Position numbers and translations under genes: made by a program
In this document: piece by piece, positions 4,506 to 6,156 of the stretch
Position numbering within the stretch: position 1 is the first letter of the stretch
How the letters are laid out: the number at the start of each line of letters is the position of its first letter
Assembly: GCA_033875315.1 (NCBI GenBank)
Contig: JANRJG010000005.1
Location: 1-48,418, forward strand
Origin: Candidatus Methylacidiphilales bacterium
GTDB lineage: Bacteria > Verrucomicrobiota > Verrucomicrobiia > Methylacidiphilales > CAZTYG01
Direction: 5' to 3'
DNA: 48,418 bases
Notes under the pieces: generated by a model
Database searches by the model: none
Told to the model about the DNA's origin: nothing
Seen by the model: the letters and a program-made list of their open reading frames with translations, nothing else

Positions 4506-4853
4506 ATGACGGACACTTTTCTTTCCACCGGTCACATGGCGTTATGGCTCCTGATTGCCGGGTTGTTCTTTCCCCGTCTGGCCCTTCTTTTCGCATGGCT
4601 CATCACCGGGACCTATCCGGCGAATCCCCTGTCTGACCTGGTGAACGTGCTTTCGTGGCTCTTCTTCCCCCGATTCCTGATGGCCTATTACATCTACCTA
4701 GATATGGGCACGCAGAACTTCTGGTTCTGGGCCTACATCGTGGTGGGCATCGTCAGCATCTTTGGCGAGGGTGGTTACGTCCACCGGCGCATCATCCGCC
4801 GGACCCGCGTCAGCCGCGACGGTCGCACGACCACCACGGTCGAGGAAGAGTAG
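4506..4853 (+). CDS. small membrane protein, unknown function
   Basis: A 115-residue protein with three hydrophobic stretches, roughly residues 11-35, 44-66 and 72-87 (ALWLLIAGLFFPRLALLF, LSWLFFPRFLMAYYIY, FWFWAYIVVGIVSIFG), and a basic tail rich in Arg, Thr and Glu (RRIIRRTRVSRDG). Topology would put the tail in the cytoplasm by the positive-inside rule. I do not recognise a family. A TAACAT hexamer ends exactly 6 bases before the ATG, but no TTG box lies 16-18 bases upstream of it. The gene stands alone between priA and the photolyase pair. Confidence 0.7.
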   Translation: MTDTFLSTGHMALWLLIAGLFFPRLALLFAWLITGTYPANPLSDLVNVLSWLFFPRFLMAYYIYLDMGTQNFWFWAYIVVGIVSIFGEGGYVHRRIIRRTRVSRDGRTTTTVEEE

Positions 4854-4943: not shown

Positions 4944-5747
4944 ATGATTCTCCCGCCGCCCGGACCCGACCGCGAGGCCAGCGTCCGCCGGCTGGCCACG
5001 TTGCTCGAGGGACTTTATGCCGGGTCCCCGGCGGACGCCAGGCCCGGTGTCTGGGTCGGTGGACGCAACGCCGCCCTCGCGCAGCTCCGCTCCTGGACGG
5101 CCGGGGGCTATGCCGCCACTCGCAATTCCCTTCTTCCCGGGCACGGCAATGTCTCCCGCCTTTCCCCCTATCTTCGCCATGGAGTGCTCACGTTGCGTGA
5201 GGTGGCGGAACACGTTCGCCACACCTGCACCTCGGAAGCCGACCGGGTTAAATTCTGGGCCGAACTCGGCTGGCGGCAGTTCTGGCTCCTCGTCCGCCGC
5301 GCCCGGGGAGACGCGATCTACCACGACTTGGAGCCGCCGAAGGTTCCGCTCGGCGAAGAACGGATGCCCGACGATATCGCGGAAGGCCGGACTGGGCTGG
5401 CCTGCATGGATGCCTTTGTGAAAGAATTGACCACCACCGGCTGGCTGCACAACCACGCCCGCCTCTGGTTCGCCGCCTACGTGGTTCACTTCCGCAAAGT
5501 CCGCTGGCAGGAAGGGGAGCGCTTCTTTTACCGTCATTTGCTCGATGGCGACCCGGCCAGCAACGCCCTTTCCTGGCAGTGGGTGGCCTCCACGTTCTCC
5601 CACAAGCCCTATATCTTCAACCGCGACAATCTCGAGCACCACACCCGCGGCGTTCATTGCCGGACCTGCACCGCGGCCTGCCCCTTCCAGGCTTCATATC
5701 CGGAACTGGAGCGGCGGCTTTTTGGGAAGGAACCCGGCCATGACTGA
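4944..5747 (+). CDS. photolyase/cryptochrome FAD-binding domain protein
   Basis: A 267-residue protein holding only the C-terminal FAD-binding helical domain of the photolyase/cryptochrome family. Diagnostic segments: FWAELGWRQFW (about 107-117), TGWLHNHARLWFAAYVVH (about 167-184), and DGDPASNALSWQWVAS (about 203-218), which in relatives contact FAD and the DNA lesion. The end carries HCRTCTAACPF, a cysteine cluster whose role I cannot assign. A full photolyase is about 450-500 residues with an alpha/beta domain first; that domain is missing here but appears in the next gene, which overlaps this one by 8 bases. Flavin-dependent repair of UV dimers or light sensing is likely. Confidence 0.85.
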   Translation: MILPPPGPDREASVRRLATLLEGLYAGSPADARPGVWVGGRNAALAQLRSWTAGGYAATRNSLLPGHGNVSRLSPYLRHGVLTLREVAEHVRHTCTSEADRVKFWAELGWRQFWLLVRRARGDAIYHDLEPPKVPLGEERMPDDIAEGRTGLACMDAFVKELTTTGWLHNHARLWFAAYVVHFRKVRWQEGERFFYRHLLDGDPASNALSWQWVASTFSHKPYIFNRDNLEHHTRGVHCRTCTAACPFQASYPELERRLFGKEPGHD

Positions 5748-6156
5748 ACCTGTGCTTGTTTGGTTGCACGGGGATTCCCTCTCCCCCGAAGATCCCGCCG
5801 CCCGGCTCCATCCAGGGGCCCGCCGCGTGTTCGTCTTCGATCGCCCGTTGCTCGAACGTTCGCCGCTCAGTTTCAAACGAATCTTCTTCCTCTACGAATG
5901 TGCGGGCGAAGCGGCGGACGAACTCCGCGTGGGTGACCCGGTGGAAGAATTGATCAGCGCCTGCCACAGCGCCGGAGTCCGGCGCATCGCCGTGACCGAG
6001 AGTTTAGCGCCGCGTTTCCATGAACTGGTCACACGGTTGGGAGAATCCATGGCCGTCGAAATCGTGCCCGCAGACAGCTTCGTCCCCGTTCCCGCGGACT
6101 ACGTTCCCAAGCGGTTCAGCGCATTTTGGAAAAACCACGGCCGGGAATGGCAGTGA
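5740..6156 (+). CDS. separate photolyase N-terminal-like alpha/beta domain
   Basis: 138 residues; ATG 5740 overlaps the stop of the FAD-domain gene, so translation is probably coupled. The layout matches the N-terminal Rossmann-like domain of photolyases: first strand PVLVWLHGDSLSPEDPAA, RVFVFDRPLLERSPLSFKRI, then RVGDPVEELISACHSAGVRRIAVTE and an ending near VEIVPADSFVPV, as in the antenna-binding domain of intact enzymes. The call rests on pattern and order, not on a catalytic residue. If right, the two halves are encoded in reverse order compared with normal photolyases and should form a heterodimer. The alternative is an unrelated small alpha/beta protein. Confidence 0.65.
   Translation: MTEPVLVWLHGDSLSPEDPAARLHPGARRVFVFDRPLLERSPLSFKRIFFLYECAGEAADELRVGDPVEELISACHSAGVRRIAVTESLAPRFHELVTRLGESMAVEIVPADSFVPVPADYVPKRFSAFWKNHGREWQ

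Follow-up and report, generated by a model that had tools for sequence, protein, structure and literature searches.

Ordinary photolyases are single chains that begin with their alpha/beta domain and, to our knowledge, all the well-studied members of the group are single chains. The window analysed here, a stretch of 48,418 nucleotides that is contig 5 of a 3.15-Mb, 95.65%-complete assembly of a Candidatus Methylacidiphilales bacterium (Verrucomicrobiota), contains two overlapping genes that raise the question of whether the same enzyme might also be made as two chains, encoded in the opposite order, and which lesion such an enzyme would repair. The original prediction was that a 267-residue gene carrying only the FAD domain is overlapped by 8 bases by a second gene of 138 residues; both ORFs, their sizes, and the overlap were confirmed, and the pattern VGDPVEELISACHSAGVRRIAV was present in the second protein as described. 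The features concerned, all on the forward strand, are the following:

4944..5747, +, FAD (catalytic) subunit, Phr4-type, without an alpha/beta domain (PF03441 match, AlphaFold2 model)
5262..5264, +, Glu107, CPD-type active-site glutamate (ELxWR), assigned by alignment; PhrB-like proteins have another residue here
5403..5405, +, Cys154, the first of the candidate Fe-S ligands; invariant, in the same column as a PhrB-like cysteine
5451..5453, +, Asn170, occupying the place of PhrB His366, the catalytic histidine of (6-4) enzymes (PMC4619345); assigned by alignment
5658..5681, +, Cys239, Cys242, and Cys246 (CxxCxxxCPF), candidate Fe-S ligands; invariant, in PhrB-like columns
5724..5732, +, Shine-Dalgarno-like GGGAAGGAA 5' of the second ATG; a modest signal
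5740..5747, +, 8-base overlap ATGACTGA, the start of the second gene lying within the end of the first (ORF coordinates)
5740..6156, +, alpha/beta subunit (antenna-type, Phr5-type), 138 aa (orthologues match PF00875; AlphaFold2, Foldseek, VIA-align)

Regarding the FAD subunit, the sole Pfam match of the 267-residue protein was FAD_binding_7 (PF03441; E 2e-23, residues 105-223), and neither PF00875 nor the PF04244 N-terminal domain was found by Pfam search in that chain. The FAD-subunit profile was homologous to the FAD domain of a class I photolyase (E 2e-32), while the structures nearest to its AlphaFold2 model (pLDDT 75) were Fe-S photolyases and class I photolyases, with Z values of 15-16.5.

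The 138-residue protein of the window, when searched alone, had no match in Pfam or NCBIfam, and a sequence search of solved structures with it returned only noise. Among its aligned orthologues, PF00875 was matched by 11 of the 13 rows of a first alignment and by 22 of the 23 rows of a wider one, with a best E of 5e-5, which value is under the strict Pfam cut-off yet consistent; the small protein also gave weak matches to ordinary photolyases of related genomes (L016, L017, L019, and L020), within their N-terminal part. The AlphaFold2 model built from the 23 rows (pLDDT 85.5) displayed an alternating alpha/beta fold, whose top Foldseek match was the Thermus photolyase (E 2e-4), the top ranks being occupied by photolyases and cryptochromes; and in VIA-align this model of 5740-6156 alone superposed on photolyase N-domains, with a Z of 12.6 over 128 residues at 3.3 A for 1iqr and a Z of 12.2 over 110 residues at 2.0 A for 3zxs. 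Sequence profile and predicted fold therefore agree in identifying these 138 residues, as had been proposed, as the photolyase N-terminal alpha/beta domain. A universal stress protein, which has the same fold, was considered as an alternative identity and rejected, the Z of about 9-10.4 being below that of the best photolyases and the profile favouring PF00875. A viral or phage origin of the pair was likewise discarded: a search of viral contigs gave no relatives of the small protein, and the phage matches to the FAD subunit were only distant (about 29-32% identity).

Of 60 related genomes, 13 have an orthologue of the small protein (50-63% identity) as the next gene after that of the FAD subunit, and a complete FAD gene occurs in exactly these 13, adjacent to the small one; one further related genome (G057) has the FAD gene only, as a fragment at a contig end. 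When named genomes were scanned with the small protein, the FAD gene was found just upstream in all 23 of the loci recovered, 15 of which are of the window's kind (Verrucomicrobiota, with two labels doubtful) and 8 of which belong to Chloroflexota. The distribution is patchy, since in a draw of 388 genomes from the phylum of the window the small protein occurred in the window's own genome only; in a draw of 301 genomes from the phylum of Chloroflexus it occurred in 18. The reversed order that had been predicted, with the FAD gene first and the alpha/beta gene second, was seen in three phyla. The junction itself is variable: among the 22 unfused named pairs, a 4-base overlap (ATGA, with GTGA in two cases) is seen in 17, which arrangement would fit a translational coupling through the stop-start overlap, and a 1-base overlap in 2, whereas the genes of the remaining 3 pairs are separated by 8, 8, and 40 bases. 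In the window an ATG of its own opens the second gene, with AAGGA eight bases upstream, and over the 22 pairs the mean Shine-Dalgarno duplex energy was -8.4, compared with -5.1 (sd 3.4) for upstream stretches taken at random, a modest difference.

Other genomes carry the two domains in different states of union. On Deinococcus plasmids we found one split pair, in strain QL22, whose genes overlap by 4 bases, along with three single-chain proteins of 456-472 aa having the same FAD-first order, and two single-chain fusions of 447-450 aa, also FAD-first, were present in Chloroflexota (G742 and G735). At the other extreme, an acyltransferase-like gene lies between the FAD and the alpha/beta gene in G609; the two genes are about 3 kb apart in G585, where a PhrB-like gene adjoins; in G649 they lie on two contigs, surrounded by unrelated genes; and in G513, which holds an alpha/beta relative (L102:6566-7024), no FAD partner of the Phr4-type family was found in the genome—these separated and unlinked cases being mostly from draft genomes, so that single ones may be assembly faults. 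A small gene lying apart from any photolyase gene, which circumstance the original prediction had counted against itself, is accordingly seen in a few Chloroflexota; three of the four such genomes, however, have the FAD gene at another place. Within one sequence family with swapped domain order there are thus fused, adjacent, and separated forms, and these constitute, together with the overlapping and unlinked ones, a good natural series for the question of the antenna domain. Where the genes are separated or unlinked the alpha/beta protein must work in trans; if those cases are true, the antenna subunit could be shared or separately regulated. In the FAD-domain tree, several deep forks of which were without resolution, split and fused forms are intermingled, so that joining or splitting probably took place more than once. 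One locus (L060:2107-3410, in G029) has the FAD and alpha/beta domains in one frame with a linker, that frame breaking inside the alpha/beta part; this may represent either a gene fusion disrupted by a sequencing error or a gene in decay.

The pair of the window belongs to a known kind. Haney et al. (2022) described phr4/phr5, together with a fused phr6, in marine picocyanobacteria (Synechococcus and Cyanobium), and left undecided whether phr4/phr5 gives rise to two chains or to one frameshifted chain (PMC9426592). A phr4 mutant had a raised sensitivity to UV-C, and in E. coli the phr4/phr5 region increased survival after UV-C, that survival not being significantly higher in the light than in the dark; UV protection in vivo by this type is documented in Synechococcus RS9916 only (PMC9426592). 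The two groups resemble each other in having the FAD gene first and the alpha/beta gene second, in including fused forms, and in the four Fe-S cysteines, with a step of 85 residues between the first and the second (C169 to C254 in the Phr4 of RS9916; PMC9426592); moreover, in a comparison made by primer-encoded peptides only, WIRHGVL and NLERYSK of RS9916 phr4 resemble YLRHGVL and NLEHHTR of the window. They differ in the junction, a 7-bp gap there versus the 8-base overlap here, in the host, which here is one of the Verrucomicrobiota, and in that the relatives of the window include overlapping, separated, and unlinked genes. In view of that precedent the novelty is smaller than the original prediction implied. 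Our literature search, which was limited in reach, found no later paper naming both phr4 and phr5; within that search, what appears to be new is the pair in Verrucomicrobiota, Chloroflexota, and Deinococcota, the further fusions, the separated genes, and the CPD-type active site.

On the basis of the natural fusions in the same order, the strict co-occurrence, and the overlap, a two-subunit enzyme is the best reading, and we consider it quite probable that the pair is a Fe-S, CPD-type photolyase with a separate antenna or structural subunit; the fusions, the co-occurrence, and the genomes with the genes apart would support that reading indirectly. The two genes would then specify, as two polypeptides, the halves of a single photolyase: the FAD subunit would bind FAD and the damaged base pair and, to judge from its four invariant cysteines, would carry a PhrB-like [4Fe-4S] cluster; the alpha/beta subunit might dock at the site of the N-terminal domain of ordinary photolyases and hold an antenna pigment delivering light energy to the FAD, or at least stabilise the FAD subunit; and termination-reinitiation at the stop-start overlap could provide similar amounts of both proteins. 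A natural two-chain photolyase would render the contribution of the antenna domain, and the need for its covalent attachment, directly addressable by adding or omitting that domain.

Three other explanations of the pair need to be weighed against the two-subunit photolyase. That the small gene might be a decaying remnant or a random ORF next to a stand-alone FAD domain is suggested by the lack of a Pfam match for the window's protein alone; but the dN/dS of orthologue pairs is 0.06-0.23, so that the gene is real and under purifying selection, the pairing is strict in three phyla, and the photolyase fold is confident. The pairing across loci and the dN/dS refute that explanation, whose probability we hold to be negligible. 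The 138-residue ORF is in the +1 frame relative to the FAD gene and open also upstream of its own ATG, and natural fused proteins exist, both of which circumstances would agree with a programmed +1 frameshifting in the overlap that yielded one continuous chain in reversed order, a possibility raised by Haney et al. for phr4/phr5. The overlap type, however, is variable (overlaps of 8, 4, or 1 bases, and gaps of 8 or 40 bases), a start codon is present in each alpha/beta gene, usually with a Shine-Dalgarno-like stretch, and genes that are unlinked or separated by other genes cannot be joined in that way, in which genomes a frameshift-made single chain would be unneeded; we accordingly view this mechanism as very improbable, though for the window's own pair the sequence by itself is compatible with a +1 shift. 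The pair could instead be a light sensor, that is, a cryptochrome-like signalling protein and not a repair enzyme, since sequence separates photolyases from cryptochromes unreliably and the effect in E. coli occurred in the dark (PMC9426592); yet the pair retains the FAD-domain fold along with the catalytic Glu and Asn, and no signalling gene is located beside the pair within the window, so that we deem a sensor rather unlikely. By analogy, the absence of a significant light effect for phr4/phr5 in E. coli would nevertheless be an odd counterpoint to the photolyase reading.

If the pair is a two-subunit photolyase, the question of its substrate would turn on the active site. C154, C239, C242, and C246 are invariant in the 22 aligned FAD-subunit rows, share columns with the PhrB-like protein of the same genome, and are absent from NewPHL-like and class I proteins. 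By alignment, Glu107 and Asn170 are as in the class I CPD photolyases, the Asn being present at the PhrB-His366 position in the window and nearly all its relatives (Tyr in L059). A PhrB variant with H366N, a substitution described as the CPD counterpart, no longer repairs (6-4) lesions (PMC4619345). Since Asn170 and Glu107 constitute the CPD pattern and that substitution kills PhrB, the Fe-S cysteines are no proof of (6-4) activity, and the two residues weaken the published (6-4) assignment of Phr4/Phr5. In favour of the pair being a (6-4) photolyase, which is the prediction made for Phr4/Phr5 on the strength of the Fe-S cysteines, are the alignment of the four cysteines with PhrB and the fact that the phr4 mutant was sensitive to UV-C rather than UV-B (PMC9426592); against it are the Asn170 where (6-4) enzymes need His and the PhrB-like protein already present in the genome, on which grounds we regard a (6-4) photolyase as unlikely. 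The active-site pattern being that of CPD photolyases, the most likely substrate would be the cyclobutane pyrimidine dimer, which, as for the related NewPHL proteins, might be repaired in single-stranded DNA, an assignment toward which we incline slightly. That Fe-S cysteines and a CPD-type active site coexist challenges the practice of deducing (6-4) activity from the cysteines alone.

The FeS-BCP/PhrB prokaryotic (6-4) photolyases (PF04244) have the four cysteines in the same columns and furnish the best structural matches to the FAD model, but PhrB is one chain with a PF04244 N-domain and has His where the window has Asn170. The class I CPD photolyases (E. coli, Anacystis, and Thermus) are homologous in the FAD domain and share the active-site Glu and Asn, whereas they are one chain with an N-terminal PF00875 domain and without the Fe-S cysteines, the window's pair being split and reversed. 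NewPHL, SPL, and Phr7 are single-stranded-DNA CPD photolyases with an inverted topology (PMC13274461). NewPHL/SPL and the window have in common the FAD domain in first place and the active-site HNHxR and E-x-x-W; and the NewPHL-like C-terminal domain is collinear with the 138-residue family at an hhalign probability of 79%, a moderate signal from an alignment in which L103 is in the wrong frame and contributes noise only, that row being set aside in all conclusions on the small protein. NewPHL-like proteins are nevertheless one chain with a short C-terminal domain and no Fe-S cysteines, whereas the window has two chains and four cysteines. We propose tentatively, at somewhat under even chances, that the family represents a widespread class of two-subunit photolyases combining an antenna domain in trans, a PhrB-like Fe-S cluster, and a CPD-type active site.

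As the genome of the window encodes a class I photolyase and a PhrB-like protein as well, the split pair would most likely be its third photolyase. With respect to antenna pigments, ribH (DMRL synthase) was over the cut-off in that genome, and outside the window CofG was over its curated cut-off, whereas a CofH-like protein narrowly missed the cut-off (G000:C11:67747-68664 and G000:C24:56667-57668), so that this member of the Verrucomicrobiota may make 8-HDF (FO), a photolyase antenna, and both DMRL and 8-HDF would be possible antennae of the pair.

Certain minor observations concern the surroundings of these genes. Directly upstream of the pair, between it and a priA-like gene, the window has a predicted membrane protein of 115 residues (4506-4853). 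In a Chloroflexota genome (L101:1570-3881) the frame of the Phr4-type FAD gene is overlapped at its start by a gene for a PhrB-like photolyase. The MAG records of two loci, L049 and L060, are labelled Paceibacterota and Blastochloris; the genes are those of the window's Verrucomicrobiota order, and the labels look wrong.
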